A model generated the notes under the pieces. That model was not told where the DNA came from, made no database searches, and saw only the letters and a program-made list of their open reading frames with translations. The translations under genes were made by a program, and so were the position numbers. From Ehretia macrophylla (Eukaryota; Streptophyta; Magnoliopsida; Boraginales; Ehretiaceae), in NCBI GenBank assembly GCA_037974665.1, contig CM075782.1:42150851-42214850 (forward strand): DNA of 64,000 nucleotides. The letters run 5' to 3'. Shown here piece by piece: positions 41,000 through 64,000 of the stretch (the stretch's first letter is position 1; every line of letters starts with the position of its first letter).

Positions 41000-41414
41000 G
41001 TCATGTTGAGGATGCAAAGCCCTTATTTCTCATCCTTTTCGCGTCTCCCGATGAACGATCCGGGATAATCAAACAGTGCAAAAAGAAGAAAAGTGGCCCA
41101 AAATTGATGAAAATGTTCAATTTTAGACTCCGAAAATAGGCACAACCGAGCAGGCCTGCTGCCCCCGTCGTAGAGCTTTCAGAGAGCTTTCTAACGGTAT
41201 GTTGTACGCATCATAACTCTTTACAGATCAAAAGTTATGGGCACTGGAGTGACGGAGACCTGGTCACCTGCCCCACGCCCTCAGTTTGCGGGCCCAGCCT
41301 CTACGCGAAGGGAAGTTCTCTTGCCTAAGATGCTGTGGGACTCGGTAATAGAAATGTGTTGGATAAAGCATCTTGGCAAGCCTTAACGGGGCAAAAAATT
41401 CAAAATGAAAAGGG

Positions 41415-41532
41415 GGGTGCAACACGAGGACTTCCCTAGGGGTCACCCATCCTAGTACTACTCTCTCCCAAGCACACTTAACTTCGGAGATGTCATAGGA
41501 TCTAGTGCATTACTGCTGGTATTATCGCACCC
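41415..41532 (-). rRNA. 5S rRNA gene copy R12
   Basis: Full-length; even-type spacer (CATCTTGGCAAGCC). Box A altered by one change. Confidence 0.83.
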
Positions 41533-41946
41533 GTCATGTTGAGTGCGCAAAGCCCTTATTTGTCGTCCTTTTCGTGGCTCTCGACGAACGATCAGAGACG
41601 AAGAAACAACGATAAAAGAAGAGAATTGGCCCAAAACTGATAAAAATGATTGATTTTGGACTCCGTAAATAGGCGCAGCCGAGTAGGCATGCTGCCCTAG
41701 TCGTAGAGTTCTCGAAGATCATTCTAACGGCATGTTGTGTGCTGTGTAACACCTTACGAATCAAAAGTTATAGACACCGGAGCGACGGAGACCTGGTCAC
41801 AGGCCCCACGCACTCGGGTTGCGGGCCCAGCCTCTACGCGACGTACAGTTGTCTTGCACAAGATGACGTGGGACTCTGTAATAGAAATGTGACGGATAAA
41901 GGAATTTGGCAAGCATGAACGGGGCAAATAAACAAAACGAAAAGGG

Positions 41947-42063
41947 GGGTGCAACACGAGGACTTACCTGGGGTCACCCATCCTAGTACTACTCTTTCCC
42001 AAGCACGCTTAACTTCAGAGATTAGATGGGATCCGGTGCATTACTGCTGGTATGATAGTACCC
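41947..42063 (-). rRNA. 5S rRNA gene copy R13
   Basis: 117 bp; odd-type spacer; box A intact. Counterpart of R5, eight units away. Confidence 0.84.
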
Positions 42064-42478
42064 GTCATGTTGAGTGCGCATAGCCCATATTTGTCATCCT
42101 TTTTGTGGCTCCCGATGAACGATCAGGGATGAAGAAACAGAGCAAAAAGAAGAAAAGTGGCTGAAAACTAATGAAAATGTTTGATTTTAGGCTCCGAAAA
42201 TAGGCGCAGTCGAGCAGGATTGCTACCCCCGTCGTAGAGCTCATAGAGAGCTTTCCAACGGTATGTTGTGCACCGCGTAACTCCTTACGGAACAAAAGTT
42301 ATAGTCACCGAAACGACAGAGACCTGGTCATAGGCCCCATGCCCTCGGTTTGTGGGCCCAGCCTCTAACTAAAGCGAAGTAGTCTTGCCCAAGATGCTAT
42401 GGGACTTTATAATAGAAGTATGACAGATAAAGCATCTTGGCAAGCCTGAACGCGGCAAAAAATTCAAAACGAAAAGAG

Positions 42479-42595
42479 GGGTGCAACACGAGGACTTCCC
42501 TGGAGGTCACCCATCCTAGTACTACTATTTTCCAAGCACGCTTAACTTCAAAGATCTGATGGGATCGGTGCATTATTGCTAGTATGATCGCACCC
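42479..42595 (-). rRNA. 5S rRNA gene copy R14
   Basis: 117 bp; even type. Closest of all copies to canonical 5S in the box C region (CTGGAGGTCACCCATC on the plus strand) with box A intact. The 3' spacer is nearly the same as that of R18. Confidence 0.85.
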
Positions 42596-43008
42596 AATAT
42601 GTTGAGTGCGCAAAGCCCTTATTTATCGTCCTTTCCGCGGTTCCCGATCAACGATCAGGGATGAAGAAACAGCGCAAAAATTAGAAAAGTGGCCTAAAAC
42701 TGATAAAAAACATTCAATTGTAGGCTTTGAAAATCGGCGCAGCCGTGCAGGTTTCCTGCCTCCGTCGTAGAGCTCTCGGAGGGCTTTCGAACGTTATACT
42801 GTGCCGCATTACTCCTCACGGATCAAAAGTTATGGGCACCGGAACGACGGAGAACTGGTCACAGGCCCCATGCCCTCAGTTTGTGGGCCCAGCCTCTACG
42901 CGAAGCGAAGTTGTCTTGCCAAAGATGCAGTGGGACTCGGTAATAGAAATGTGACGGATAAAACAATTTGGCAAGCATGAACGGGTCAAAAAATTCAAAA
43001 TGAAAAAG

Positions 43009-43126
43009 GGGTGCAACACGAGGACTTCGTTTTGGGTCACCCATCCTACTACAACTCTCTTCCAAACACGCTTAACTTCGGCGATCTGATGGGATCGGGT
43101 GCATTACTGTTGGTATGATCATACCT
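43009..43126 (-). rRNA. 5S rRNA gene copy R15
   Basis: Full-length; odd type. Shares the rare CTTCGTTTTGGGTC with L18 and the ACATGCGCAGTTGAGTAGG spacer with R7. Confidence 0.83.
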
Positions 43127-43541
43127 GTCATGTTGAGTGTGCAAAGCCCTTATTTGTCATCCATTTCGTGGATCCCGACGAGCGATCAGGGACGAAGAAA
43201 CATCACAAAAAGAAGAAAAGTGGCCTAAAACTGATGAAAATTTTTGATTTTGGGCTCCAAAAACATGCGCAGTTGAGTAGGATTACTGCCCCCATCGTAG
43301 AGCTCTCGGAGAGCTTCCCAACGATATGTTGTGCGCTGTGTAACTCCTTACGAATCATAAGTTATGGTCACCGAAGCGACGGAGACCTGGTCACAAGCCC
43401 CACGACCTCGGTTTGCGGGCCCAGCTGCTATGCGAAGAGAAGTTGTCTTGCCCAAGATGCCATGGGACTCGGTAATAGAAATGTGATAGATAAAGCATCT
43501 TGGCAAGCCTAAACAGGGCAAAAAATTCAAAACGAAAAGGG

Positions 43542-43659
43542 GGGTGCAACACGAGGACTTCTTTAGGGGTCACCCATCCTATTACTACTCTCCCCCAAGC
43601 ACGCTTAAATCTGGAGATCTAATGGGATCTGGTGTATTACTGTTGGTATGATCGCACTC
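43542..43659 (-). rRNA. 5S rRNA gene copy R16
   Basis: Full-length; even type; box A altered (CTTAAATCTGG). Confidence 0.83.
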
Positions 43660-43970
43660 GTCATGTTGAGTGCACAAAGCCCTTATTTGTCATCCTTTTC
43701 GCGACTCCCGACGAATGATCAAGGACAAATAAACTGTGCAAAAAGAAGAAAATTGGTCCGAAACTGATGAAAACATTCAATTTTGGGTTTAGAAAATAGG
43801 CACAGCCGAGCAGGCTTGCTGCCCCCATCGTAGAGCTCTTAGATAGCTTTCCAGCCTCTAAGCAAAGCGAAGTTGTCTTGCCCAATATATTGTGGGACTC
43901 GTTAATAGAAATGTGACGGATAAAGAAATTTGGCAAGCATGAACGGGGCAAAAAAACAAAACGAAAATAG

Positions 43971-44088
43971 GGGTGCAACACGAGGACTTCTTAGTGGGTC
44001 ACCCATCCTAGTACTACTCGCTTCCAAGCACGCTGAACTTCGGAGATTTGATGGGATCCTGTGCATTACTACTGGTATGATCGCATCC
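43971..44088 (-). rRNA. 5S rRNA gene copy R17
   Basis: Full-length; odd type. The preceding spacer has lost about 103 bp (junction GATAGCTTTCCAGCCTCTAAG), giving a 429-bp unit. Confidence 0.83.
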
Positions 44089-44505
44089 ATCATGTTGAGT
44101 ACGCAAATCCCTTATTTGTCATCATTTTCGCGGCTCTCGACAAACGATCAGGGATGAAGAAACAGCGCAAAAAAAAAACAAAAGTGGCCCGAAATTGATG
44201 AAAATGTTCGATTTTGGGCTCCAAAAACATGTCCAGTAGAGCAGGTTTGGTGCCCACGTCGTAGAGCTCTTAGAGAGCTTTCCAACGATATGCTGTGCGC
44301 AGCGTAACTCCTTACGAATCAAAAGTTATGGTCACCGGAACAACGGAGACATGGTCAAAGGCCCCACGCCCTCGGTTTACGGGCCTAGCCTATAAGCGAA
44401 GCAAAGTTGTCTTGCCCAAGATGCCGTGGGACTCGGTAATAGAAGTATGACAGATAAAGCATCTTGGCAAGCCTGAACGCGGCAAAAAATTCAAAACGAA
44501 AAGAG

Positions 44506-44623
44506 GGGTGCAACACGAGGACTTCCCTGGAGGTCACACATGCTAGTACTACTCTTTCCCAAGCACGCTTAACTTCCGATATCTGATGGGATTCGGTGCC
44601 TTACTACTGGTATGATCGCACCC
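44506..44623 (-). rRNA. 5S rRNA gene copy R18
   Basis: Full-length; even type; box A intact. Box C partly canonical, as in R14. Confidence 0.84.
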
Positions 44624-45038
44624 GTCATGTTGAGTGCGCAAAACCCTTATTTGTCGTTCTTTTCGCGACTCCCGACAATCGATCAGGGACGAAGAAACAA
44701 CGCAAAAAGAAGAAAAGTGGTCCAAAACTGATGAAAATGTTCGATTTTGGGCTCCGAACACAGGCGCAACCGAGCAAGCTTGCTGCCCCCATCGAAGAGC
44801 TCTTAGAGAGCTTTCCAACAGTATGCTGTGTGACACGTAACTCCTTACGGATCAAAAGTTGTGGTCACCGGAGCGATGGAGACCTGGTAACAGACCCCAC
44901 GCCCTCGATTTGCAGGCCCAGCCTTTACGCGAAGCGAAGTTGTCTTGCCCAAGATACCGTGGGACTCGGTAATAGAAAGATGATGGATAAAGCATCTTGG
45001 CAAGCCTGAACGGGGCCAAAAATTCAAAATGAAAAGGG

Positions 45039-45060
45039 GGGTGCAACACGAGAACTTCCA
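45039..45060 (-). pseudogene. 5S rRNA 3'-end fragment at the element 2 junction
   Basis: Only the last 22 bp of a 5S gene (GGGTGCAACACGAG on the plus strand) precede the element 2 sequence that begins around 45061. Confidence 0.8.
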
Positions 45061-45544
45061 TTAAACATCTTGGCAAGCATCTTGTCTTGCCTAAGTTTAA
45101 TATCCAGCTGCTGAGCTTCCCTGATCTGAGACACCAATAAAGGTTGAATACGGAGATGTGAACACACCACCCTAACATGAGTCAACTCTGGTCTCCAATA
45201 AGTGAATTCCTCAAGAACCTCCCATTTCTTGACAGCCAAACAAGCAATACTCGCCTTCCGGTTGAAAGCATCTACTACAACATTTGCCTTGCCAGGCAGA
45301 TAATTGATAGAACAATTATAATCTACAAGAAGCTCCATCCACCTCCGCTGGCGCATATTCAACTCCTTCTGTGAGAACAAGTACTTCAGACTCTTATGAT
45401 CAATGAAAATCTCAAACTTACTGCCCCACAGATAATGACGCCACTTCTTTAGTGTGAAGACAACTGCTACCAACTCAAGATCATGAGTTGGATAATTCAC
45501 CTCATAAGGCTTCAACTTCCAGGAAGCATAGGCAATAACTCGGC
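45061..45544 (-). pseudogene. RNase H and linker part of element 2 (fossil)
   Basis: Minus-strand coding sequence with the RNase H pattern ([34 protein letters not shown]) followed by the linker before integrase. It continues the segment on the other side of the solo LTR. Confidence 0.85.
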
Positions 45545-45549
45545 CATCC
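45545..45549. repeat. Target site duplication CATCC (left)
   Basis: Directly repeated at 49119-49123; the surrounding element 2 coding sequence is continuous if one copy and the LTR are left out of consideration. Confidence 0.85.
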
Positions 45550-48500
45550 TGTGAGGCCCGACCCCGATTTGCGTGTGAAACCTAGCTTCGTGTGCCCTAA
45601 CCTAGATTTGCGTGCCATGACCTAGGTTTAAGAATTGTGTTTAATTTTGTGTGCCTTACATTGAATTACGTGCATTCATATAGGGTTGCGTGCATTTACT
45701 TGAAAAACGTGCGTTCGTCTCGTAGTTCGTGTCCTACCTCGTAGTGCGTGTCCTAGACCTAGGAAAGCGTGCCTTCACGCTAATCAAGAAAGCATCTTCC
45801 ACGAAGCACTAGGCTATTAAACAATCCTACAAAGTACACTATCAATATAATAATCCTAAACCAATTCACTAGAAGACAAAAATTCACCAAAAACAAAACA
45901 TTCCTTATTCTTTATGCATTATTCTTTTTGCACTTTCAAGATACAATTAAAATAACACTCAACCAAGACAAAAAAATTCAGAATTATGCACATGCTTGGC
46001 CGGCCATATCATGTTTTGAGCAAGAAAATTTGAACAACATAAATTATTGTGCATGCTTAGACAAACACTTAGCACAATGCCGTCAAAAAATGCTCAAAAC
46101 CACCTCAAAACTCCACCATACTCGACCAGCCCTTCCATGCCCATGCTAGCATTTTAAAAACCACATCTTGAAGGCACAAAATCAGAATTTGGACTGCCCA
46201 AGGCCGACCACACCCTCAAAGGAATTGCAAAGCCATCACTTTGTCATATCTTCTTCATTTCCTCTCAACTTCTCTCTCTCACTCTCATTTCCTCTCTCAT
46301 ACTTGGCCTTGGCTGAGTTCTCTACCTCCTTAGCTTGTCTTCTTCACAACTTAGTTGAGAAAATTCAAGCAACTCAAGCAAACAAGCTAGAGTTCGAAAA
46401 TACCACATGCATGTGCATTGAAGTTTCATTTTCGGCCTAGGTAAGCTTCTTGACATCCATTTATTTTCTTCAAATTCTAACTACATGCATGCACTAAGAG
46501 ATTGATCACTAAGCTAGGAAAAATAGAGAAAAGCTAGTGGGATTTCGGCTAGACAAAGGAGAAGAGGAGAGTTGAACTTCAACAAAGGTTTTTGAGCAAC
46601 TTGAGGTTGATTGCTAAGGTGAGGGTTAAAACCTTTTGACAACTCTTCAAAATTTCACATGCATGCTCATGAATGTGTGTATTTGCTTCTGTACTTGAGA
46701 TATATGATCGTTCATAAGCTTAAACAACCATGCATGGCAAGATCTTGGCTTGAAAATGATGCTAGGTGAAGTCGAAATGGATGACAGCTCTCTGACCAGT
46801 CTGTTCGAGGTAAGTTTAGCTAGTAAAATGATGTTTAAAATGCTTGAAAATTGGTGGGTGACTAGTTTTTACAGTTTTGAACATTTTTCCCAGAAATAGG
46901 CCGAAGCTAATTTTGACTCTAAAGTCCTCAAAATGGAAAATCTTTAAAATGTGACTAAATCTGGAAATCTGGAGAAATGAAGCAGGTTTTGGCAGATGCA
47001 CTGACCATGTGGAACGAACCATATTTAACTTAGAAAATGTTGTCCAAAATGCATGACATTTGGTGTGCGCTATATTTTTCAGTTCTGGACAATTTTGTCA
47101 GAAATGGACCAAAGCTAAAACTGACCCTAAGGACCTCAAAAACGTCAATTTCTGAAAAGTGTGCAAATCTGGACAGTTTTGTGTTACCTCACTGTTTCGG
47201 CTATAACTAATGATTCTGAACTCCAATTGATGCAAGGCTTGTTTCTGATTTTGGATAACTTCTTAAGCTTTAATTTGACATCTTATTAAATGAATTTGGA
47301 GATTGTTTGATTATCCTATTGATTGTGGGAAAACATCCTATTGCAGTAAAGGGTTCATTTAGCTACGTGCTTGGGAAATTGTTGTAACCTCTCTTGTGGT
47401 TCTATTTGTGGTGAAATTTGGTGTTGGGATGTTATGTGGACTGTTTTGAGTACTTGAGGATGCTTGAATTGAATGATGCATGACTTGAGAATGATTTTGA
47501 GTTGACTTAGGGTTTTAATCACACAATTAAGCATGAAATGGAAACCCTAATGACTAGGTAGTTTTGCTAAGTGTTGATCTTTTGGTTATTGTATGGAAAT
47601 TATATGCTTAGTGGGCTACCCGTAAATGTTTCATAACTTCAAATGTGAAATTGACCATGGCATGTTGTCAAATAAGCTTTTCTTGCTACCGAACCCGTGT
47701 TAATTTCACTGCATGTTGAATAATCTTATCACTTGATTACGTGGGCTTCTTAATGAGTTATATGGCCTGTTTTACATGTGTTACATGGCTGCCCGTTTAA
47801 TTTTCATATAACTCTATATGCCTTTCAAGTGAAATTTCCTGTCTTATCGTTCCTTACTTGTTTACCTGTTAATGTGCAATCTTATAAATGTTCAAAGGCA
47901 ACCTACTTTGTTGTCCTCCTACTGTGATATATTACCTGTCATGAATGTGCATTGCATACAAGGTTGCAACCTTTCCTGTTGGCATGGTAGCGATCACGCA
48001 CACCGGGCGGCATCGGGCTTGCCGGTGCACCCGTGACTACCATGGTCCCATTCCCTCTCTCGCTTGGGGGCTAGACTTCCTCGGAGAGTTGGGTCGTAGG
48101 ATTTCGGGATACATCCGGAGTACACCCACCTGGCGTGTTTGGGGGATGATTTGAAGTCGGCCGCAACAACTGATCCTGGAACTGATCTGAGAGCAAAAGC
48201 TCACTGTATCCTTTTTACTATGTGTATAAGTACTCTTGCTTTGTTCCTAGAGAACCTCGGGAAGGAAAGACCGGTATTCCTGTTCTGTACTTGTATTTCT
48301 GTTGTATTCATGTTTGAGAAAGGGATTTTCATAAGTTTAACCGGAAAATGAGTTTCAAAACTTATTTCTCGTTCCCCCCTCGCTGAGTTCATAAGGACTC
48401 ACCCTCTTTTATCATCTCAGGTGAAGAAGAACAGGTACAGGAACCCGAGGACAATGTACCTAATGATGAACCCCTGGAGTGATTGCCTGTTATTGTTGTT

Positions 48501-49118
48501 TTGCTTGAACGTGACTACTTGTGTACCTTGTGCTGCTTGAAGACCATTTATTTTATGTTGCTTGTTGTTGCTAATGTAAAAGACCCCCGTTGTAATTTGG
48601 GGTCTAATTTTGGTTTGTACTTATATTAAGTAGACTGATGCTAGATATAACACTGCTGTGATCGTTTTGCTTTTATCACCGGTAGTATCTATCTTAGGTT
48701 ATGACGCTTTAGTTAAGATCTAAGTAAATGAACTTATCCAATCTTAACAGGTACTTGCTTTTGAGCTAAGATCAACAGGTATATTTGTAACGAGGACAAA
48801 TAAGCAAACGAGACATAGTATCATGCTAGGCTATAAATCAAACGGGACGTCGAAATAACCAATAGGCAATCCAATCGATAGTAAATTAGTAATCTTAGTT
48901 GGAAATGAATTTGAGACGGTAAACTTTGAGGCGTATAGAGAATTAGGTTAAACCAAATGGCCAATTACAGCCGTTATGCTGTCGGTTTTCCGGAAAAACT
49001 TTGGAGTTTAGACTAAATCATCAGGTATTAATCTTCATAAACAGCTAAGTACATGATATTACTTGAATGTTAGTTCACACCCTAGTCTAACCTTATAGGC
49101 CGGGTTAGGGGCGTGACA
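45550..49118 (+). mobile_element. Solo LTR of family 1, nested in element 2
   Basis: 3569 bp, begins TGTGAGGCCCGACCCC and ends GGGGCGTGACA, similar along its length to the two element 1 LTRs but clearly more diverged (tens of percent in places, far less in the 47983-48120 region). Flanked by a perfect 5-bp duplication CATCC (45545-45549 and 49119-49123). Solo LTRs arise by recombination between the two LTRs of an inserted element. Confidence 0.92.
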
Positions 49119-49123
49119 CATCC
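49119..49123. repeat. Target site duplication CATCC (right)
   Basis: Pair of 45545-45549. Five base pairs is the size expected for Ty3/gypsy integration. Confidence 0.85.
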
Positions 49124-51957
49124 TGCATAAGAACACATCCCAAGCCCTCCTTGGATGCATTGCTGTAAATAACCATATTATCGGTCCCCTCTGGTAGAGC
49201 AAGTACTGGAGCAGTAGTCAACCTCATTTTCAACTCCTGAAACCCACTCTCACACTTCTCATCCCAAGCAAAGATAGTCTGCTTCTGAGTCAACTTAGAA
49301 AGTGGCCCAGCAATCTTCGAGAAGTCCTTTACAAACCTACGGTAATAACCCGCCAAGCCAAGAAAGCTACGGACATCAGAAACATTCTCCGGACGTTTCC
49401 AAGACATTATCGATTCAATCTTAGTGGGATCAGCAGAAATACCGCTCTGTGAAATAACATGGCCAAGAAAAGATATGCGTTGCAGCCAAAATTCACATTT
49501 GCTGAACTTGGCAAACAACTGATGCTCCTGCAGCTTCTGTAAGACAAGCCGTAGATGTTGCTCGTGCTCCGATTCAGATTTAGAATAGACCAAGATATCA
49601 TCAATAAAGATTACCACGAACTGGTCTAAATACGGCTGAAAAACTCGATGCATAAGATCCATGAATGCTGCCGGTGCATTAGTTAATCCAAAGGGCATAA
49701 CAACAAACTCATAATGCCCGTACCGAGTCCTGAAGGCAGACTTCGGAACATCCTCCGTGCGAATCCGAAGCTGATAATACCCCTGCCTCAAATCAAATTT
49801 AGAATAGACTTTGGCTTCCTGAAGTTGATCAAACAACTCGTCACTCAGTGGCAAAGGATATTTGTTCTTGATGGTCACCTGATTCAAACCACGGTAATCA
49901 ATACACAACCTCAAGGTACCATCCTTCTTCTTCACAAATAAAACGGGAGCTCCCTAAGGTGAAGAACTCTGATGAATGAAACCCCTCTCCAATAACTCAT
50001 GCAACTGAGTCTTCAACTTCTTGAACTCAGCTAGTGCCATCCAGTACGCGGATTTAGAAATAGGTTGAGTACCGGGAATAAGATTGATCACAAACCCCGC
50101 ATCTCTCTCTGGTGGTAACCCTGGCAACTCCTCGGGTAATACATTGGGATATTCCCAAATAATAGGGACTTCCTCTAGCTGTAGCTTATCAGATGGCTTG
50201 TTGATCAAATAAGCTAGATAACCCGAACACCCCTTACTCACCAACTTAACGGCTTTAGTTGCTGAGATAACAAAAATCGTCTTTGCACCCCGATTCCCTA
50301 CTACCTCAACTACTGGCTGATCTGGCAAACGAAACTGTACTAGCTTGGTTCTACAGTTCAACTGGGCATCAAACTTAGAAAGCCAATCCATACCCAAGAT
50401 AACATCATACCCCCGGATAGGAAATAAGATAAGGTCCGAAGGAAAATTATGCCCCTTAACATGTATTATACAATCCTTACATACTAAGCCAGTAACATAC
50501 TTATCAATCAAAGAGGTACTAATCTCAACCACATAAGGCAATCTTTCAGGTTGCAAATTAACACGTTGCACACAAGCAGGAGTAATGAAAGAATGTGTAG
50601 CACCAGAATCAATCAATACTTTAACAAGTTGATCAAGTATAAGGAAGTTACCTTCCACAACTGCAGTCTCCTCAGGCATCTCCTCTAAGTCAACTGCGTA
50701 GGCTCGAGCCTGAACCCGTTGTTGCTGAGGTGCACTGGCCGCAGGTCGGCCCTGATAACCCTGAGTCGCTGTCCGACCCTCAGTCCTCGAATACCTAGGG
50801 CAATCCCTCGCCCTGTGCTGATTGCTGCCGCATCCTAAACACGTCCCTGCTTTCACCCTGCAATCGGCCTCCACATGCCCCGTGCGCTTGCAGTGTGTAC
50901 ACTGCGGTGATGATGCACTAACACTGCCCCTGGATGAACCAGAAGCTGAAGGAACAGCTGAACCAGTCTGCTGCTGAGGCCTTACCAAACTGGGCCTGTA
51001 CTGACCCTGAGACTGGGCTGGCCTGAACTGGGACTGAACCTGATATGACCCCTGCTGAAACTGAGGCCGATAATAACTCTGCTGCCCTTGTGGCCTGAAA
51101 GAACCATGCTGTGCTGGTGGCCAGTACACAACCTGCTATACGGGAGGCCTATACATACTCTACTGATACTGTGGCTGAAACGGCCTCTTACTGGGCTGAC
51201 TAGAAACAAGCTGATCCCCCTTCCTCTTCTCTAGTCTAGAAGCTGCCTCAAAGGCCTCAGTGAATACATCATACCGATTCAGAGCCATCACATCCTGAAT
51301 CTCGGGCCTCAACCCCAACATGAATCTACGAGTCCTCCACTCCTCATCAGCCACATACTCCGGTGCATAACGGGACAATCGAGTAAAGGTGGCCTCATAC
51401 TGAGCCATTGAAGCATCTCCTTGCACTAAGGCTAGAAACTCTGCCTCTCTCCGTTCCCTCGCGATCCTTGGGACATACTTTGCCCGAAAAGCCACCAGAA
51501 AGGCACCCTAAACATAAGGAATACCCTGAGTCGCCCAGCTAGTCCTTACTGTGTGCCACCACTCTTTTGCCTCATCATCTAACAAGTACACGGCAAAAGA
51601 GACTTTCTGCTCATCGGTATAGTCAAGAGTATCATAAATCTTCTCCAACTTGCTAATCCACGCCTCAGCCTTCATATCATCCGGCTCCCCCTGAAATCTA
51701 GGTGGATGATACCCTAAGAACTCCTTCAGGGTACCATGCCCATGGTTTCCACCCTGCACATTCAACAGTTGAGCCTGCCAAGCCTGAGTCTGGGCAGCCT
51801 GCCCTACTATCAACTGAGCCTGACCGACCACTAACTCAGCAATCCTCTCTATCGCTGCCCCTAAATGTTTATCACCCCAATCACGGCCCGGTGCCGTAAT
51901 ACCCGGAGTCTCATCAGTCATCTCAGGCCTACCTCTGGTTCTCGGTCTACCCGTCAT
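49124..51957 (-). pseudogene. gag, protease and reverse transcriptase region of element 2 (fossil)
   Basis: Gag starts at the ATG at 51957 (MTGRPRTRG). Two CCHC knuckles lie at about 50800-50901 (CTHCKRTGHVEADC, CLGCGSNQHRARDC) and protease DSGATHSF at about 50590-50610. Reverse transcriptase runs from about 50050 to 49250 with FIDDIL at 49591-49608, and the start of RNase H follows. The protein is related to but distinct from that of element 1. Frames are interrupted, so it is a fossil. Confidence 0.88.
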
Positions 51958-52225
51958 TCTACTAATCAAAGAGTTAGCACAGGTTATAGCACGTAAACAG
52001 GTTATGAACAACTATTAGCACATAAACAACAAAGTCACATAAAACACATAAACAAATTGATCACATAATCACATAAGTACTAAATCACATAATCACTTAA
52101 CCACTTAATCACTTAATCATTTAATCATATTAATACATAGATCACTTTTCTTTCTTTTCATACATACTTTCATGCTAAGACCATTACCCACATTCCGAGA
52201 ATACCCCAGCTGACAACTAACATGA

Positions 52226-52237
52226 GCTCTGATACCA
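52226..52237 (-). other. Primer binding site of element 2 (initiator tRNA-Met)
   Basis: TGGTATCAGAGC on the minus strand, 6 bp from the LTR end. Confidence 0.85.
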
Positions 52238-53205
52238 CTTAAATGTCACGCCCCAACTCGACCCCTCCTATAATCAGTCAGGACGCAACGGAATTTCGGT
52301 AGTATAACGACAGTGAATAGGATACCGAGGCTCTAAACCAACCTCAATAGGACATCATACATCAACTCCATAAACCATACAACAAACAGCTCCTCAATAA
52401 AATAACAATATACACCATAACCACATTATACAATAAACATTCCTCGTTATACGCCTCCATTCCAACATAATACATGAACCCTTAATATACATTACAAAAA
52501 CATATTGAGCCAATCTAGCAACCTAATCATAAACAAAAGAAAGGCTACTAAGACAGCATCAACTAATTCATTAACTTTTCAACATCTTATACATTATAAA
52601 CTACAAAGCATATAAAAGTCTACTATGTTAATTTTCAAGATAATAAAACAGTACAACATCAAGGATAAGACTCCGGAACATAAGACTCATCCACATAAGG
52701 CACATTTTCCACATTCTCCTCTTTAGGAGGCACGTACCCGTAATATTGCGAAAGTACACCTGTAGGCATGCAATAATAGAGAGTGAGCTTATATAAAATA
52801 AGCCCAGTGAGGATTCGATAGATCTCTACAGTATTCACTATGCTCCTTGGATTTAATCCTTTGAGCAAGTAAATACACAATAACATCAATAATACTATCA
52901 TCACATAATCTATAATGACCATTCAATAAAGGATACACTAGTTGGTGTAGCTCCAATCACCATCACGATCATAACTGCCTTCTTGTGACTCCCATAAACT
53001 CACGCACCCGAGGTACCCAATAACCTCTCCCTCCATGACACCTCCGTTATGCGAGCTGGAGGCAGTCTCTGGTAGTCATGCCATTATCAACCCGACAGCC
53101 CGATGCTGCCTGAGAGGTGACACATACTTACCAAAGACTCAACAATAATAATAAACATCAATCATTCACAAGAGGACAGTCTAGCAGAACTGCCTACCTC
53201 CCGGC

Positions 53206-53304
53206 ATCAATCATCAGTCAATAATCATCAATCATCATCAATAATCATATTATCATCATCAATAATCATATTATCATCATAATAACATCAATAATCAATT
53301 TAAC
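53206..53304. repeat. ATC/AATC-rich simple repeat
   Basis: Repeated ATCATCAATAATCATATT-like runs inside the element 2 LTR. Confidence 0.75.
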
Positions 53305-54664
53305 AACAAATAACTAAGTTAGATGACCAAGTAGGCCACCCAACCGAACATGCATTAAACATACAATCAAACCCTAGTTTACCCATCAACAACTCACCAT
53401 TCAATCACTCAAACCACACCCGATCAACTAAGGCTCAATTCAATAATTTAAAGAAAGATAACCTAAACTTCAAATAATCATATCTTACATTCTACTAATC
53501 CAAACAACCCCAAATCAGTTTCAAACACTCACCCACTCGATCAACTACATTATCCCTCTCGGAAACCAACCAAGACACCTCAAAATCAAGCCCAACAACC
53601 CTAAAACCACAAGGCACCAAGGCTAAAATTTTTGAATTTTCACCCAAACATCGTAATCGAAAATTTGGCATTATAACGGCGTTACCACGTAATTAACAAA
53701 CTTTTAAAAATTGACAACAATCGATTCCAACCACAACAACTCAAAATAATCCTCAAAAAGCCATTCTATCAACTTTAAATACCCGAAAATAAATAATTTT
53801 GCTACAATAGCTCAAATCTCGTAGTAATACACATAAACGATCCCTAGGATGAATGGAGCAATAATCTAACATCATATTAACATTCTAACGGTTCAAAATG
53901 CAGTTATGAGCAAAAACAAAAAAAATGAGTTTTGAGATCCAGAATTTTTCTCTCATCTTTGATGAGATAAAAGCCTAGGAATGCATGCAATGCATGCCCA
54001 ACAAGCGGAATCCAACTCGGCACGAATTTCTACGGACAAAAACTAGGTTTTTCTTTGAAAATTTGCTTTGAAAACCTTGAAAACTCTTTTCTCTTTTCTC
54101 CCTTCTTCCTCTTTGTAATGTGTGTGCAAATGAAGGTGTTTTTGTGCTTTGCTTGTGTGTGTTGGTGATATATGCATGAAAGTCAACATTTAATGAAAGT
54201 CAAAGTTGATTTAACTTAGTATTTTTAGTGTTTTCTTGACTTTAAATGCATTTTATTGATCACCAAAGTTCAAAACAATTATTCAACACCTAGGATAGCT
54301 CAAGTAGGTTATTTTTAGGTGATAAGAAGTTTTACAATCGAACAATTTTACCCAAGTCGGCTTAAAACTCGATTTTCGCAAAAGTCAGTGTAAAAACCCT
54401 AATAAATTCTTAAGCCGATTTTAAAACCATTTTAATCAAACACAGGTCTATTAAAGTTCGTGGACTAGGTCTAGAAGGGTTAAAAAGACCAGTTTCAAAA
54501 TTTTAGCGGACGTGTTTCGAAAACACTATTCACTAAAAATCGACGATAAAATTTCTGACTCCGTTTTTTATGAAAATTTCATGAATGCACATTTAGCATG
54601 TTCTAGGAGTATTGATACTAAAATTACCACATTATAAGTCACATAGCACATAGACAGGTTAATT

Positions 54665-54721
54665 CACGCAAAACAAGATAAAGCACGCAAAACGAGATAA
54701 AGCACGCAAAATGAGATAGGA
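54665..54721. repeat. Three tandem copies of a 19-bp sequence
   Basis: CACGCAAAACRAGATAAAG repeated at 54665, 54684 and 54703 (the third diverged), just inside the outer end of the element 2 LTR. Confidence 0.85.
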
Positions 54722-54739
54722 TAGAAAAGTGGGGTTTCA

Positions 54740-55619
54740 TAGTTATTATAAGCGAACTCCGCTAGAGACAGATACTTCTCCCAACCTTTCCCGAAGTCTA
54801 AAACACATGCCCTCAGCATATCCTCCAGAATATGAATAGTTATTTCTGATTGTCCATCAGTCTGAGGGTGATAAGCCATGCTGAAACTCAACTTCGTTCC
54901 CAAAGCTTCTTGCAATCTCTTCCAAAATCGGGAAGTAAAATGAGGATCCCTATCCGATACAATACTCATTGGCATCCTGTGCAATCTTACAATCTCCGCC
55001 ACATACACATCTCCCAATTTCTCAGGACTATCCTCCTTGTTCATCGGTAAAAAGTGTGCTGACTTAGTCAATCTATCCACTATGACCCAAACGGCATCAT
55101 GACCCTTTTGTGACCTGGGCAGGTCCATAACAAAGTCCATAGTTATATGTTCCCATTTCCATTGAGGAATCTCTAACGGCTGAAGTAAACCTGCTAGTCA
55201 TTGATGTTATGTTTTGACTTTCTGGCAAGTCAAACACTGTGCCACGAACTCCGCAATCTCTCTCTTCATGTTATTCCACCAATAGTGTTGTTTCAAATCT
55301 CAGTACATCTTTGTTCCACCTGGGTGAATAGTGTATCTTGAATTATGGGCTTCTTCAAGAATCTTCATTTTCAGCTCTGATTCATTAGGAACACAAATCC
55401 GATTCCTAAACCTCCAAATACCATCATCATGAAACTTAAAATCTGTGTTGCTTTCTTTAATCTTTTGAAATTGTTGGTCCTTCTGTTGAGCCTCTCGTAA
55501 TTCAGATAACAAGGTCGATTGAACCTGTGTAGTGGCAAAAATTAACCCTTTTCGAGTCAATTGTGGTTTCCACAAAAATGCTTCCTCCAACAACTCCTGC
55601 ACCTTGACTACTAGTTTTG
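54740..55619 (-). mobile_element. Integrase-region fragment of family 1 (fossil)
   Basis: Minus-strand coding remnant matching the linker and integrase of element 1 ([53 protein letters not shown]). On one side it stops at the LTR start of element 2, on the other it joins the satellite. Broken. Element 2 most likely inserted into it; the part expected on the far side of element 2 is absent. Confidence 0.85.
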
Positions 55620-55960
55620 CCATAACTTTTGATCCGTAAGGAGTTACGCGATGCATAGCATTCCGTTAGAAAGCTCTCCGAGAGCTCTACGACGGGGGCA
55701 GCAATCATGCTTGGCTAAGACTATTTTTGGTGCCCAAAATTGAACATTTTCATCAGTTTCGGGTCACTTTTCTTACTTTGCACTATTTTTCCATCCCGAA
55801 TTGTGCATCATGAGCCAGCAAAGGACGTCAACGTAATCCATCATATCTATATTACCGAATCCCATGGCACGTTGGACAAGACAACTTCGCCTCACGTAGA
55901 GGCTGGGCCTGCAAACCGAGAGCATGGTGCTTGGGACCAGGTCTCCGTCGCTTCGGTGCC

Positions 55961-56476
55961 CATAACTTTTGATCCATAAGGAGTTACGCGGCGCACAACA
56001 TACCATTGGAAAGCTCTCCCAGAGCTCTACGATGGGGGCAGCAAGCCTGCTCGGCTGCGCCTATTTTTGCATCACTTTTCTTCTTTCGCACTATTTTTCC
56101 ATCTTGAATTGTACGTCATGAGGAGCGAAAAAGATGACAACATAATCCATCATATTTCTGTTACCTAATCCCACGGCACATTGGATAAGACAACTTTGCC
56201 TCACGTAGAGGCTGGGCCCAGAAACCGAGGGTGTGGGGCTTGGGACCAGGTCTCCGTCGCTCCGGCGCCCAAAACTTTTGATCCGTAAGGAGTTACGTGG
56301 TGCACAGCATACCATTGGAAAGCTCTTCGAGAGCTCTACGATGGAAGCAGCAAGCCTGCTTTGCTACGTCAATTTTTGGAGCCCAAAATCGTACGTTTTC
56401 ATCAGTTTTGGGTCAGTTTTCGGAGCCCAAACCGAGGGCGTGGGGCTTAGGACCAGGTATCCGTCGCTCTGGTGCC
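55961..56476 (+). repeat. Two shortened satellite monomers
   Basis: The monomer from 55961 is 309 bp (about 31 bp lost between CCTATTTTTG and CATCACTTTTC). The next, from 56270, is 207 bp (about 134 bp lost between GGAGCCCAAA and CCGAGGGCGTGG, where both edges read GCCC...CAAA). They lie near the retrotransposon edge of the array. Confidence 0.8.
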
Positions 56477-56868
56477 CATAACTTTTGATCCGTAAGGAGT
56501 TACGTGGTGCCCAGCATACCGTTGGAAAGCTCTCCGAGAACTCTACGATGGGGGCAACAAGCCTGCTCAGCTGCGCCTGTTTTTAGAGCCCAAAATCGAA
56601 TGTTTTCATCAGTTTTGTGTCACTTTTCTTCTTTTGTACTGTTTTTCAATCCCGGATCGTACGTCGTGAGCCACAAAAAGGACGACAACGTAATCTATCA
56701 TATGTCTATTACCGAATCCCACGGTACCTTGGACAAGACAACTTCGCCTAAAGTACAGGCTGGGCTCGCAAACCGAGGGCGTAGGTCTTGGGACCAGGTC
56801 TCCGTCGCTCCGGTGCCCATAACTTTTGATCTGTAAGGAGTTACGCGGTGCACATCATACCGTTGGAA

Positions 56869-56883
56869 AGCTCTCCGAGAGCT
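56869..56883. other. Near-perfect dyad in the spacer (representative)
   Basis: AGCTCTCCGAGAGCT: a 7-bp inverted repeat around one central base. The same dyad is found in most 5S spacers (plus strand AGCTCTCGGAGAGCT) and most satellite monomers. Confidence 0.6.
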
Positions 56884-59800
56884 CTACGATGGGGGCAGCA
56901 AGTCTGCTGGGCTGCATCTATTTTCGAAGCCCAAAATCGAACGTTTTCATCAGTTTCGGATCACTTTTCTTCTTTCGCACTGTTTTTCCATCTTGAATTG
57001 TACGTTGTGAGGAGCGAAAAAGATGACAACATAATCCATCATATTTTTATTACCTTGTCCCACGGCACCTTGGATAAGACAACTTCACCTCACATAGAGG
57101 CTGGGCCCGCAAACCAAGGGTGTGGGGCTTGAGACCAGGTCTCCGTCGCTCCGGTGCCCATAACTTTTGATCCGTAAAGAGTTACGCGGCGCACAGTATA
57201 TCGTTGGAAAGCTCTCCGAGAGCTCTAAGATGGGGGTAGCTAGCTTGCTTGGCTGCGCCTATTTTTGAAGTGCAAAATCGTATGATTTAATCAGTTTCAT
57301 GTCACTTTTCTTCTTTTGCACTGTTTTTTCATCCCGAATTTTACGCCATGAGCAGTGAAAAAGATGACAACATAATCCATCCTATTTCTATTACAGAATC
57401 CCACGGCACATTGGACAAGACAACATCGCTTCACGTAGAGGCTAGGCTAGCAAACCGAGGGCATAGGGCTTGGGACTAGGTCCCCATCGCTCCTGTGCCC
57501 ATAACTTTTGATCCATAGGGAGTTATGCAGCGCACAGCAAGCCGTTGGAAAGCTCTCCGAGAGCTCTACGACGGGGGCAGCGAGACTGCTCGGCTGCGCC
57601 TATTTTTCATGCCCAAAATCAAACTTTTTCATCAGTTTGGTGCACTTTTCTTCTTTTGCACTGTTTTTCGTCCCGTATCGTACGTCGTGAGCTGCGAAAA
57701 GGATGACAATACAATCTATCATATTTTTATTACAGAATCTCATGACACCTTGGACAAGACAACTTCGCCTAAAGTAGAGGCTGGATGCACAAATCGAGGG
57801 CATAGGGCTTGGGACCAGGTCTCCGTCGCGCCGGTGCCCATAACTTTTGATCCGTAAGGAGTTATACGGCACACAACATACTGCTGGAAGGTTCTCTGAG
57901 AGCTCTACGATGGGGGCAGCAAGCATGCTTAGCTATGCCTCTTTTCGGACCCGAAAATTGAATATTTTCATCAGTTTTGGGCCACCTTTCTTCTTTTGCA
58001 CTGTTTTTCTGTCCCAAATTGTACGTCGTGAATAGCGAAAAGTACGACAACGTAATCCATCATATTTCTATTACCGAATCCCACGGGACCTTGGACAAGA
58101 CAACTTCGCCTCGAGTCGAGGTTGGGCCCACAAACTGAGGGCGTAGGGCTTGGGACCAGGTCTCCGTCGCTCATATGCCCATAACTTTTGATCCGTATGG
58201 AGTTACATAGTGCATAGTATACCGTTGGAAAGCTCTCCAAGAGCTCTACTACAGGTGCAGCAAGGCTTCTCGACTACGCCTATTTTCAGAGCCCAAAATC
58301 GTACGTTTTCATCTATTTCGGGTCATTTTCTATTTTTGCACTATTTTTCTGTCCCGAATTATATGTCGTGAACAGCAAAAAGGACAACAACGTAATCCAT
58401 CATATTTCTATTACCGAATCCTACGGCACCTTGGACAAGAAAACTTCACCTCACGTAGAGGCTGGGCCCGCAAACCGAGGGCGTAGTGCTTAAGACCAGC
58501 TCTCCGTCGCTCCAGTGCCCATTACTTTTGATCCGTAAGGAGTTATGCAGTGCACAATATACCGTTGGAAGGCTCTCTGAGAGCTGTACGATGGGACAGC
58601 AAGCCTGCTTGGCTGCGCCTATTTTCAGAGCCCACAATCGAACGTTTTCATCAGTTTCGGGTCACTTTTCTTCTTTCGCACTGTTTTTCCATCTTGAATT
58701 GTAAGTCGTGAGGAGTGAAACGGATGACAACATAATCCATCATATTTCTATTACCTAATCCCATGGCACCTTGGATAAGACAACTTGGCCTCACGTAGAG
58801 GCTAGGCCCACAAACCGAGGGTGAGGGGCTTGGGACCAGGTCTCCGTCGCTCCGGTGGCCATAACTTTTGATCCGTAAGGAGTTACCTGGTGCACAGGAT
58901 ACCGTTGGAAAGCTCTCCAAGAATTCTACGATAGGAGCAGCAAGCCTGTTGTGCTACGCCTATTTTTCGGAGCCCAAAATCCAATGTTTTCTTCAGTTTT
59001 GGGTAACTTTTCTTCTTTTGCACTATTTTTCCGTCGTGAATTGTACGTCGGGAGCTGCGAAAAGGACGACAACGTAATCCATCATATTTCTATTACCGAA
59101 TCCCACGACACCTTGGACAAGACAACTTCACTTAATGTAGAGGCTGGGCCCACAAACCGAGGGCCTAGGGCTTGGGACCAGGTTTCTGCCGCTTCAGTGC
59201 CCATAACTTTTGATTTGTAAAGAGCTACGCGGTGCACAGCATACCATTGGATAGCTCTCCAAGAGCTCTCTGATGGGGGCAGCAAGACTGCTCAACTGCG
59301 CCTATTTTCAGAGCCCAAAATTGAACATTTTCATCAGTTTCAGGTCATTTTTCTTCTTTTGCACTGCTTTTCCGTCCCAAATTGTACGTCGTGATCCGCA
59401 AAAATGACGACAACATAATCCATCGTATTTCTATTACCGAATCCCATGGCACCTTGGACAAGACAACTTCACATCACGTAGAGGCTGGGCCCGCAAACTG
59501 AGGTTTTGGGGCTTGGCACCAAGTCTCCGTTGCTCCGGTGCCCATAACTTTTGATTCGTAAAGAGTTACGCGGCGCACAGCATGCCGTTGGAAAGCTCTC
59601 CGGGAGCTCTAAGACGGAGGCAGCTAGCCCGCTCGGCTGCGCCCATTTTCGAAGCCTAAAATAGAATGATTTCATTAGTTTCGGGTCACTTTTCTGCTTT
59701 TGCGCAGTTTTTCCATCCCGAATTGTACGTCGTGAGCAGCAAAAAAGATGACAACATAATCCATCATATTTCTATTACCGAATCCCATGGCACCTTGGAC

Positions 59801-60239
59801 AAGACAACTTCGCCTCACGTAGAGGCTGGGCCAGCAAACCGAGGGCATGGGGCTTGGGACCAGGTCTCAGTCGCTCCGGTGCCCATAACTTTTGAACCGT
59901 AAGGCGTTACGCGGAGCACATCTTACCGTTGGAATGTTCTCCGAGAGCCCTACGACGTGGCCATCTAGCCTGCTCAATAGCGCCTATTTTAGGTGCCAAA
60001 AATCAAACATTTTCATCAGTTTCGTGTCACTTTTCTACTTTTGCACTATTTTTCCATCCCGGATCATACGACGTGAGCTGCGAAAAGGACGACAACGTAA
60101 TCCATCATATTTTTATTACTGAATCCCACGACACCTTGGACAAGACAACTTCACCCTAAAGCAGTGGCTGGGCCCACCAACCGAAGGCGCGGGGCTTAGG
60201 ACCAGGTCTCCGTCGTTTCGGTGCCCATAACTTTTGATC

Positions 60240-60253
60240 CGTAAGGAGTTACG
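60240..60253. other. Second spacer dyad (representative)
   Basis: CGTAAGGAGTTACG: 5-bp stems CGTAA/TTACG around four bases, next to the CATAACTTTTGATC phase mark; widespread in both 5S units and satellite monomers. Confidence 0.55.
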
Positions 60254-63200
60254 CGGCGCACAACATACCGTTGAAAAGCTCTCCGGGAGCTCTACGATAG
60301 GAGCAGCGATCCTGCTTCGCTACGTCTATTTTTGGAGTCCAAAATCAAACGTTTTTATCAGTTTTGGGTCACTTTTCTTTTTTTGCACTATTTTTCTTTC
60401 CCGAATTATACGTCGTGATCTGCGAAAAGGATGATAATGTAATCCATCATATTTCTATTACAGAATCTCACGGCACCTTGGACAAGACAACTTCGCCTCA
60501 AGTAGAGGCTGGACCTGCAAACCGAGGGTGTAGGGCTTGGGACTAGGTCTCCGTCGCTCCGGTGCCCATAACTTTTGATCCGTAAGGAGTTACGTGGTGC
60601 ACAGCATACCGTTGGAAAGCTTTCCGAGAGCTCTACGATGGGGGCAGCAAACCTGCTCAACTGCACCTATTTTCGGTGCCAAAAATCAAACATTTTCATC
60701 AGTTTTGTGTCACTTTTCTACTTTGGCACTATTTTTCCGTCCCGAATCATACGACGTGAGCTGCGAAAAGGACGACAACGTAATCCATCATATTTCTATT
60801 GCCGAATCCCACGACACCTTGGACAAGACAACTTCACCCTAAAGTAGAGGCTGGGCCCGCAAACTGAGGGCGCGGGGCTTAGGATTAGGTCTCCGTAGCT
60901 TTGGTGCCCATAACTTTTCATCCATAAGGAATTACGTGGCGCACAGCATACCGTTGGAAAGCACTTCGAGAGCTCTACGACGGGGGCAGCAAGCCTGCTT
61001 AACTGCGCCTATTTGTGGTGCCTAAAATTGAACATTTTTATCAGTTTCGGGTCACTTTTCTTCTTTTACACTATTTTTCTGTCCCGGATCGTACGTCGTG
61101 ATCCGTAAAAAGGACGACAACGTAATCCATCATATTTCTATTACCGAATCCTACGGCACCTTGGACAAGACAACTTCGCCTCACGTAGAGGCAGGGCGCA
61201 CAAACACAGGGTGTAGGGCCTGGGACCAGGTCTCCGTCGCTCCGGTGCCTATAACTTTTGATCCATAAGGAGTTACGAGACACACAGCATACCGTTGGAA
61301 AGATCTCCGAGAGCTCTATGACTGGGGCAACAAGCCTGCTTGGCTATGCCTATTATCGGAGCAAAAAATCAAACGTTTTCATCAGTTTTGGATCACTTTT
61401 CTTCTTTTGCACTATTTTTCGTCCCGGATCGTGCGTCGTGAGCCGCAAAAAGGACGACAACGTGATCCATCATATTTCTATTATCGAATCCTATGGCACC
61501 TGGGACAAGACAACTTCGCTTTATGTAGAGGCTGGGCACGCAAACCGAGGGCATGGGGCTTGGGACCAGGTCTCCGTCGTTCCAGTGACCATAACTTTTG
61601 ATCCGTAAGGAGTTACGTGACGCATAGCATATAGTTGGAAAGCTCTCCAAGAGCTCTAAGACATGGGCAGCAAGCCTGCTCGGCTGAGCCTGTTTTTAGA
61701 GCCCAAAATCGAACTGTTTCATCAGTTTTGGGACACTTTTCTTTCTTTGCGTTGTTTTTCCATCTCGGATCGTATGTTGTGAGCCGCGAAAAGGACGACA
61801 ACGTAATCCATCACATTTCTATTACAGAATTCCACGGTGCCTTGGACAAGACAACTTCGCCTCACGCAGAGGCTGGGCCTACAAACTAAGGGCGTGGGGC
61901 TTGGGACTAGGTCTCCGTCGCTCTGGTGCCCATAACTTTTGATCCATAAGGAATTACGTGGCACACAGCATACCGTTGGAAAGCACTTCGAGAGCTCTAC
62001 GACGTGGGCAGCAAGCCTGCTTAATTCTGCCTATTTTTGGTGCCTAAAATTGAACATTTTTATCAGTTTCGGGTCAATTTTTTTCTTTTGTACTATTTTT
62101 CTGTCCCGGATCGTACGTCATGAATAGCAAAAAGAACGACAACGTAATCCATCATATTTCGATTATCGAATCCCACGGTACCTTGGACAAGACAACTACG
62201 CCTCAAGTAGAGGCTGGGCCCGCAAACCGAGGGCGTGGTGCTTGGGTTCAATTTTCTGTCGCTCTGGTGCCCATAACGTTTGATCCATAAGGAGTTACGC
62301 GGCGCACAGCATACTGTTGGAAAGCTCTCTGAGAGCTCTACGACGGGGGCAGCAAGCCTACTCGGCTGCGCCTATTTTCAGAGACCAAAATCAAATATTT
62401 TCATCAGTTTATGGTCACTTTTCTTCTTTTGCACTATTTTTCTGTCCCGAATTGCACATCGTGAGCCGCGAAAAGGATGACAACGTAATCCTTCATATTT
62501 CTATTACCAAATCTCATGGAACCTTGGACAAGACAACTTCGCCTCAAGTAGAGGCTGGGCCGGCAAACCGAGGGCGTAGGGCTTGAGACCAGGTCTCCGT
62601 CGCTCTAGTGCCCATAACTTTTGATCCGTAAGGAGTTACGCGGTTCACATCATACCGTTGGAAAGCTCTCCGAGAGCTCTAAGATGGGGGTAGTAAGCTT
62701 GCTCGACTGTGCCTATTTTCGGAACACAAAATCGAACGTTTTCATCAGTTTTGGGTCATTTTTCTTCTTTTGCATTGTTTTTCTGTCCCGAATTGTACGT
62801 CGTGAGCCGCGAAAAGGATGACAACGTAATCCATCATATTTCTATTACCGAATCCCATGGTACCTTGGACAAGACAACTTCGTTTCACGTTAAGGCTGGG
62901 CCCGCAAACCAAGGGCGTGGGTTTTGGGACCAGGTCTCCATCGGTCCGGTGCCCATAACTTTTGATCCGTAAGGAGTTACGCGATGCACAGCATACCGTT
63001 GGAAAGCTCTTCGAGAGCTCTACGATAGAGGTAGTAAGCTTGCTCAGTTGCACCTATTTTCAGAGCCCAAAATCGAACGTTTTCATTAGTTTCGGGTCAC
63101 TTTTCTTCTTTTGCACTGTTTTTCCGTCCCGGACATATGTTGTGAGCCGTGAAAAGAACGACAACGTAATCCATCATATTTCTATTATCGAATCCCACGA

Positions 63201-64000
63201 CACCTTGGACAAGACAACTTCGCCTCACGTAGAGGCTGGGCCAGCAAACCGAGGGCATGGGGCTTGGGACCAAGTCTCCGTCGCTCCGGTGCCCATAACT
63301 TTTGATCCGTAAAGATTTATGTGGCGCACAGCATACCGTTAGAAAGCTCTCTGAGATCTCTACGACAGGGGCAACAAGCCTGCTTGGCTGCGCCTATTTT
63401 TAAAGTCCAAAATTAAATTATTTTATCAGTTTTGTGTCACTTTTCTTCTTCTACACTATTTTTTTGTCCCGGATCGTACATCGTGAGCCTCAAAAAGGAT
63501 GACAGCATAATCCATCATATTTCTATTACCGAATCCCACGGCATCTTGGACAAGACAACTTCACCTCAAGTAGAGGCTGGGCCCGCAAACCGAGGGTGTG
63601 GGGCTTAGCACTAGTTCTCCGTCGCTCTGGTGCTCATAACTTTTGATCCGTAAGGAGTTACGGGGTGCAAAGCATACTGTTTGAATGCTCTCCGAGAGCT
63701 CTACGATGGGGGCAGCAAGACTGCTAGACTGAGCCTATTTTCAGAGCCTAAAATCGAATGATTTTATCAGTTTCGTGTCACTTTTCCTCTTTTGTACTAT
63801 TTTTTCGTCCCGAATTCTACGTCGTGAGGCTAGAAAAGGATGACAACGTAATCCATCATATTTCGATTGCCAAATCCCATGACACCTTGAAAAAGACAAC
63901 TTCGCCTCAAGTAGAGGTTGGGCCCTTAAACCGAGGGCGTGGGGCTTAGGACCAGGTCTTCGTCGCTCTTCTGCCCATAAATTTTGATCTGTAAAGAGTT

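Follow-up and report, generated by a model that had tools for sequence, protein, structure and literature searches.

A gene-less satellite of Ehretia macrophylla that probably descends from the spacer of a 5S rDNA repeat

Satellites without a gene that arose from the intergenic spacer of 35S rDNA have been described in okra (AeSat-F/G/H) and also in Vicia, potato and tobacco (PMC10809672, PMC12692304, PMC8724763). As far as these accounts go, the satellite of Ehretia macrophylla discussed here resembles them in being the spacer of a ribosomal repeat amplified without its gene, but the okra satellites are subrepeats of the 35S spacer, whereas the Ehretia monomer corresponds to ~331 bp from the centre of a 5S spacer ~558 bp long. 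The jumper of Phaseolus is reported to occur as one monomer per 5S spacer with thousands of gene-less copies outside, and in this it is alike; it measures 170 bp and is presented as a satellite invading the 5S repeat (PMC8724763), whereas the trees for E. macrophylla favour the reverse. PLsatB of the Plantago lagopus B chromosome is likewise a plant satellite tied to 5S amplification (PMC6410184; Kumke et al. 2016), and a B-enriched cluster of that species, CL4, is listed with a 325-bp monomer (PMC6410184). PLsatB is described as including 5S fragments and as belonging to the B chromosome (PMC6410184), whereas the Ehretia satellite, in which no gene sequence was found, occurs on many contigs of chromosome size. 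In Prosopanche panguanensis 5S rDNA is reported as a dominant repeat, at over 15% of the genome; this plant is a holoparasite with diverged 5S, known from read clustering, and also has a satellite, Ppan_Sat01 (PMC12222929). Satellites from 5S rDNA are described in Hoplias malabaricus and Physalaemus cuvieri too, which are animals. No earlier description of the Ehretia satellite was recognised in the open-licence literature, subscription papers being mostly outside that scope. The satellite joins the known satellites derived from rDNA spacers and is unusual in scale.

The window, by which we mean the whole stretch of 64,000 nucleotides analysed, ends in this satellite. Its regular part, at 56428-64000 on the plus strand (spacer sense), was delimited by TRF and monomer alignment as a long head-to-tail array of a presumably non-coding monomer, with a period of 341 bp in 22.2 copies (TRF), which goes on past the window on contig C19; like arrays lie at other places in the genome. 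The left edge (55620-56427, plus strand) is irregular: monomer-like sequence starts at about 55620, the monomers are truncated or shortened, and motif phasing shows two short ones, of 309 and 207 bp, at 55912-56427. Of the 24 monomers cut out by this phasing the other 22 measure 339-342 bp, and the mean pairwise identity among all 24 is 82.9% (range 78.5-90.6%), with a mean of 89.6% to their own consensus. DNA folding of one monomer revealed no marked secondary structure (z -0.70, with 24 of 100 shuffles equally good). The array is most likely passively amplified satellite DNA, and no cellular function is proposed for it.

The remainder of the window holds 5S rDNA and retrotransposon sequence. 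All 62 Rfam 5S matches (RF00001) are on the minus strand, opposite to the orientation of the satellite, and lie in two stretches: a tandem array of 532/533-bp units at 89-22761, with shorter steps of, e.g., 477, 495, 501, 512 and 516 bp, and a second stretch of the same array type at 35693-44623, with two short steps of 428 and 429 bp. They are separated by a region (22762-35692) in which open reading frames and Pfam identify plus-strand pieces of retrotransposon protease and reverse transcriptase (RVP_2 at 27474-28679 and RVT_1 at 28697-29374). A further retrotransposon-bearing sequence (44624-55619) leads from the 5S array to the satellite, with coding pieces on the minus strand (RT_RNaseH, RVT_1, RVP_2 and rve) from 45024 to 55140, the point that the Pfam test of this part reached; the satellite starts about 0.5 kb past the last tested piece, an integrase ending at 55140. 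The consensus gene of the 533-bp unit differs from that of the 677-bp unit found elsewhere in the genome by A11G, C20G, A43T, C67A and T96A, the last two of which we take to fall within the internal control region. With these five consensus changes and with lower Rfam scores (53-93 bits, versus 97-119 for 47 genes scored elsewhere), most 5S copies of the window (89-44623) lack the canonical gene sequence.

The initial annotation had described the monomer as colinear with this neighbouring 5S unit minus a block of about 192 bp, and the alignment bore this out. The 341-bp consensus matches the 533-bp consensus colinearly at 93% over 338 columns (315/338, one gap, blastn E 3e-146), breaking off at ...GGACGACAA and resuming at ATCC, and the ~192 bp missing between these points comprise the gene itself, the 27 bp preceding it and ~49 bp downstream with T-runs. 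Single copies are far less similar than the consensuses, with a mean satellite-to-533 distance of 22% in a set that included L001, a locus that covers part of the window a second time. The satellite is gene-less where it was sampled: Rfam gave no 5S match right of 44623 in the window, even at E<=5, and none of 16 satellite loci elsewhere in the genome matched the gene, the block or the gene flanks. Beyond the window, at 20 points of 0.9 kb along C19:42.216-42.772 Mb, the satellite was present at 11 of the 20, and the interspersed 5S genes that the annotation had named as an argument against its own proposal, or pieces of their flanks, were encountered at none.

The neighbouring unit is probably not the donor and is not supported as the relevant reference, as the satellite sides with a longer 5S unit. 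Among the 30 loci with the best-scoring 5S genes in the 1.58-Gb genome, 29 consist of tandem ~677-bp units and one (L028) of a single unit, which rules out a Cassandra-type retrotransposon with 5S in its LTRs at these loci; the spacer module stands beside the gene at all 30. The satellite consensus differs from the 677-type spacer at 17 of 331 positions and from the 533-bp spacer at 22 of 337. Its common junction, at which GACGACAACCTAA is directly followed by TCC, fits the flanks of a gene-bearing 679-bp array on C7, where GACGACAACCTAA precedes CTCGCGG on the left (CCTAACTC in 7 of 12) and CTTTA precedes TCC on the right, with ~336-338 bp missing. The CCTAA of this junction occurs at the same place in the 679-bp array and not in the 533-bp consensus. 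Compared with the 677-bp units ~336 bp are gone, of which ~170 bp lie on the upstream side of the gene, so that the earlier idea of a missing block made of just the transcription unit and a little spacer is not supported. The figure of 192 bp arose because the 533-bp unit, probably a shortened variant, is itself ~144 bp shorter than the 677-bp unit, from nearly the same left breakpoint as the satellite. A satellite formed straight from the 533-bp unit, with 192 bp deleted, would agree with the adjacency of the two on C19, their consensus identity, the nearly shared breakpoint and the window-type junction CGTAATCC, which is without the CCT of the common type; the consensus differences and the CCTAA nevertheless make such an origin very improbable.

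The satellite has thus probably descended from the spacer of the ~677-bp 5S rDNA unit. A segment of ~336-338 bp, made up of the upstream region, the gene and the terminator, would have been lost from a gene-bearing unit through a deletion whose two end points have no more than one or a few bases in common, and the remaining 341-bp unit would have been amplified in tandem and spread over many chromosomes, possibly via extrachromosomal circles. The 5S units may likewise have been amplified and dispersed, most copies drifting off the consensus gene, and the 533-bp units beside the satellite would stem from another, smaller deletion whose left end nearly coincides with that of the first.

The junction would suit a 5S block inserted into a monomer just as well as a deletion, and one satellite-length module per 5S unit together with very many gene-less copies is the pattern reported for jumper (PMC8724763). 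The satellite might then be the older element, into which a 5S block was inserted or which itself entered a 5S spacer, the 677-bp composite being amplified afterwards; we regard this order of events as rather unlikely. One exact-word search of the genome found no 5S array without the satellite module, and an ancestral 336-bp module-free 5S unit was rejected as a candidate, as the single exact-pattern match is a unit missing most of its spacer inside a 677-bp array. The recall of the exact-word search was ~3.5% (both words exact in 4 of 113 complete 677-bp units), from which module-free 5S units are estimated at fewer than ~85, a recall that refers to the loci with the least decay and would be lower on old units, so that older relics could escape. 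Furthermore, the most diverged lineage found bears the gene: it is a 678-bp array on C6 with the full layout and a spacer 75-80% identical to the 677-bp spacer.

Descent from the gene-bearing unit is also favoured by the trees. The tree of 62 consensuses was built from 54 fetched loci, each with at least three full spacers, and from eight pieces of the window arrays; L126 and L141 were dropped, and classes were set by a nearby gene or block and for some loci by hand. It contains the satellite (25 rows, UFBoot 97, stem 0.0045), the 677-type (30 rows, UFBoot 99, stem 0.028) and a 533/old type (seven rows, five of them window pieces, UFBoot 100, stem 0.027). The midpoint root falls between 533/old and 677 plus satellite, with gene-bearing lineages on both sides; this split (UFBoot 100) and the grouping of satellite and 677-type (local support 0.976 in FastTree, for which L001, L055 and L107 were dropped) count further against an origin from the 533-bp unit. 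The coefficient of variation of root-to-tip distances reached its minimum when the root was placed on the 533/old stem (0.132, against 0.286 on the satellite stem and 0.285 on the 677 stem), a result that depends in part on two diverged single loci, L139 and L140; measured from the central node, the depth of the window 533 array (0.073) does not exceed that of the satellite (0.076). The satellite consensus lies near this central node, as would be expected of an older satellite, but that order of events requires the root on the shortest stem of the tree, that of the satellite. In the single-copy tree, from which L126 was dropped in addition to the three loci left out of the FastTree tree, satellite monophyly was recovered in 24 of 100 bootstraps and the 533/old split in 66, and three 533-type copies fell on the satellite plus 677 side of the midpoint root. 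The set of satellite, 677-type and C7 units was recovered in 0 of 100, satellite with C7 in 0 and 677-type with C7 in 60; the first of these values is, we think, due to a cut 677-bp unit (L125) that was classed outside the set and sat within it. One C7 5S unit was placed within the satellite clade and, at C4:75.44 Mb, the satellite adjoins a 5S array with the transition in phase, both of which indicate that the tree is blurred by exchange. The root position and the lack of a module-free 5S array in the search favour, partly on the two single loci, the spacer as the probable ancestor and the satellite as its descendant. Of the proposal that a ribosomal spacer became a free satellite, the homologous, gene-less and independent array stands, and the trees favour gene-bearing descent; the direction is based on midpoint rooting and clock-like reasoning within this one species.

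Nor is the satellite a local oddity, as its first description might suggest, for among the matches listed it occurs on at least 15 of 20 contigs, and gene-bearing as well as gene-less arrays of this family are spread over most of the chromosomes. With up to three mismatches the whole genome contains 127,849 satellite junctions, 165,027 blocks of the 677-bp unit and 214,895 5S genes, whereas 2,611 copies (~1.2%) match the consensus gene exactly over all its 119 bases, some of them listed at C1:0.87-1.49 Mb. The 4,661 junctions of the 533 type, counted with the same tolerance, contrast with those of the satellite and again speak against the 533-bp unit as its source. Blind points, which were hand-picked round coordinates (the later ones with some match places known) searched with three blastn settings, hit the satellite at 7 of 79 and 5S arrays at 7. 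The best rbcL copy of the genome, on C20, matched large chains of Rubisco in the PDB, with 1rlc (tobacco) as the top entry. Long tandem repeats are difficult to assemble, which might suggest that misplaced or misjoined repeat contigs produced the arrays and the dispersed matches. Such an artefact is scarcely credible, since the monomers of the window are ~17% apart, which makes copying by the assembler unlikely, and since the pattern recurs at many unlinked places and at the blind points. On C1, for example, the satellite matches listed are widely separated, lying between 32 and 57 Mb and between 113 and 124 Mb. This wide separation, in which the matches listed point to no single site on each chromosome, is the one hint that the 5S-bearing and spacer arrays along the chromosomes might act as units of the centromere, either as a holocentromere built on repeats or as several satellite centromeres. 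Such a role is very improbable; if true, it would mean that a ribosomal spacer had been recruited to chromosome segregation.

The origin of new satellites is usually inferred once the traces have vanished. Here, at an unusual scale of over 200,000 5S-like genes by the mismatch-tolerant count, one genome keeps diverged full-length, less diverged and shortened 5S units together with a gene-less satellite whose junctions are still readable, and in at least one place satellite and 5S arrays border on each other. Because these stages co-exist in one genome, the birth of a satellite from a ribosomal repeat and its subsequent spread become directly testable.

The window spans C19:42150851–42214850. 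The 62 5S genes that Rfam detects in it, all on the minus strand, form two stretches, with retrotransposon pieces in the sequence between and after them. The genes are spaced mainly 532–533 bp apart; shorter steps (428/429, 477, 494/495, 501, 512, 516 and 521 bp) occur between positions 89 and 44623, and these suggest recurrent internal deletions in the array. From about 55,620 to the window end, the plus strand carries a satellite array of ~341-bp monomers, 24 of which were cut from the window and share a mean pairwise identity of 82.9%. The satellite consensus is identical to that of the neighboring 533-bp 5S unit at 315 of 338 aligned columns, while individual copies, compared between the families, show a mean difference of 22%, and it lacks about 192 bp of that unit, namely the gene and its near flanks. 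The proposal of the initial annotation, that the satellite is the 5S unit minus a block containing the gene, is thereby borne out for the consensuses. Even with a permissive threshold, no 5S match was found beyond 44,623.

The size of the missing block depends on the unit chosen for comparison. A genome-wide Rfam search returned 274,483 first-look 5S candidates, and the 47 genes scored, on eleven contigs, reached 97–119 bits, with 53–93 bits for those of the window. Tandem 5S units, mostly of 675–680 bp, were found at 29 of the 30 loci fetched from the scored genes. In their 677-bp consensus, built on 113 units, the gene and ~49 bp downstream of it are followed by ~331 bp with homology to the satellite, then by a ~141-bp block, and ~37 bp lead up to the next gene. 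The 533-bp units of the window are without ~144 bp of this layout, at the block region, and their consensus gene is changed at five positions. Hence, the original figure of ~192 bp holds against the 533-bp neighbor, but this neighbor is atypical among the 5S units of the genome, and ~336 bp of the 677-bp unit are missing from the satellite. Inside a 677-bp array (L078; contig C6, around 82087110), one 5S unit has lost most of the satellite-homologous module, almost the converse of what is missing from the satellite.

Genome-wide counts used sequence patterns with up to three mismatches, and the reversed-pattern control gave zero every time. They amounted to 127,849 satellite junctions, 165,027 blocks of 677-bp units, 214,895 5S genes and 4,661 533-type junctions. 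Applied to three test sets, the satellite pattern recovered 23 of 24, 51 of 63 and 44 of 71 monomers, with no match to any tested 5S unit. If each match represents one full unit, the satellite (127,849 × 341 bp) makes up 2.8% of the assembly and the 677-bp units (165,027 × 677 bp) 7.1%. Blind sampling covered 79 genome points, in one batch of 19, after a twentieth point fell outside its contig, and three batches of 20; 7 points hit the satellite and another 7 hit 5S-bearing units, so that 18% of the points (14 of 79; Wilson 11–28%) lay in one family or the other. Among the matches listed, the satellite is on at least 15 of 20 contigs, and 16 further loci, picked among pattern matches on C1, C2, C3, C12 and C13, contained no match to the gene or its flanks. 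At C19:42.205–42.707 Mb, the listed satellite matches change strand twice, at about 42.30–42.31 and 42.43–42.45 Mb, which suggests that parts of this satellite stretch are inverted. Exact copies of the 119-base consensus gene number 2,611 genome-wide, and the 100 listed lie within 0.63 Mb at C1:866383–1494202; this region is a candidate functional locus, and further clusters may lie elsewhere. The chromosome-size contig C20 also contains an open, full-length plastid-type rbcL (13876421–13877347), and broken copies occur on further contigs.

The consensus junction of these 16 satellite loci is GACGACAACCTAATCC, exact in 47 of 64 cases over the nine bases after ACAA; that of the window satellite is GACGACAACGTAATCC, exact in 12 of 24, with A for G in another 7. 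For L142, a C7 array whose gene-bearing units measure ~679 bp, the consensus left flank is GACGACAACCTAACTCGCGG and the right flank CTTTATCC; if the left one is cut after CCTAA and fused to the right one from TCC onward, with one A shared, the common satellite junction results. The 533 consensus has GACGACAAATAAGGG at this place, and its variant GACGACACATAAGGG, present at 5 of 100 places listed, would in our reading be expected if 677-like flanks had been joined at an ACA common to both. The two short forms therefore seem to go back to independent deletions whose left ends nearly coincide. The gene-less 341-bp unit was most likely freed by deletion or circularization between sites sharing one or few bases, and was then amplified and spread, perhaps via extrachromosomal circles, as is generally proposed for satellites. 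The satellite gave no indication of a function, and a single folding test was unremarkable.

A tree of 320 spacer segments (142 satellite, 113 677-type, 58 533-type and 7 other, with locus L001 duplicating window copies) separates the satellite (support 0.72), the 677-type (0.97) and the 533-type plus others (0.96). Satellite and 677-type, with one further 5S unit, are split from the 533-type and an old, diverged gene-bearing lineage with local support of 0.976. A diverged 678-bp gene-bearing array with the full layout (L139; C6:59997001–60005000), whose spacer is 75–80% identical to the 677 consensus spacer, groups with the 533 side and is useful for rooting the spacer tree. In a tree of 62 consensus rows (54 loci and 8 window pieces), UFBoot values are 97, 99 and 100 for the satellite, 677-type and 533/old groups, and the midpoint root falls between 533/old and 677 plus satellite. 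A root on the 533/old stem gives the smallest root-to-tip spread, mainly an effect of L139 and another locus, L140; in this comparison, the satellite is at least as deep as the window 533 array. From trees of this one species, descent of the satellite from the 5S spacer is probable. The less favored explanation, that an older satellite invaded the 5S spacer, as reported for Phaseolus (PMC8724763), would place the root on the satellite stem, which is shorter than the other two, and leads one to expect module-free 5S units, no array of which turned up in one exact-word genome search.

Several observations speak against descent from spacer to satellite. The single-copy tree is weak, with bootstraps of 24/100 for the satellite and 66/100 for the 533/old split, and has three 533-type copies on the opposite side of the root. 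One unit of a C7 5S array has a satellite-like spacer, and satellite monomers pass in phase and in the same orientation into a 677-bp 5S array on C4 (L143, 75437001–75443000; at about 2519–3315 of this locus). Exchange between the satellite and 5S families is therefore likely.

Satellites related to 5S rDNA reportedly occur in one fish, Hoplias malabaricus, and one frog, Physalaemus cuvieri. In plants, satellites from 35S rDNA spacers are well known (PMC10809672, PMC12692304, PMC8724763), a 5S-related satellite is reported in Plantago (PMC6410184), and 5S rDNA is reported to make up over 15% of the genome of Prosopanche panguanensis (PMC12222929). The 341-bp satellite is a newly found case of the satellites derived from rDNA spacers, notable in that gene-bearing and gene-less forms stand side by side in one genome at very high copy number.
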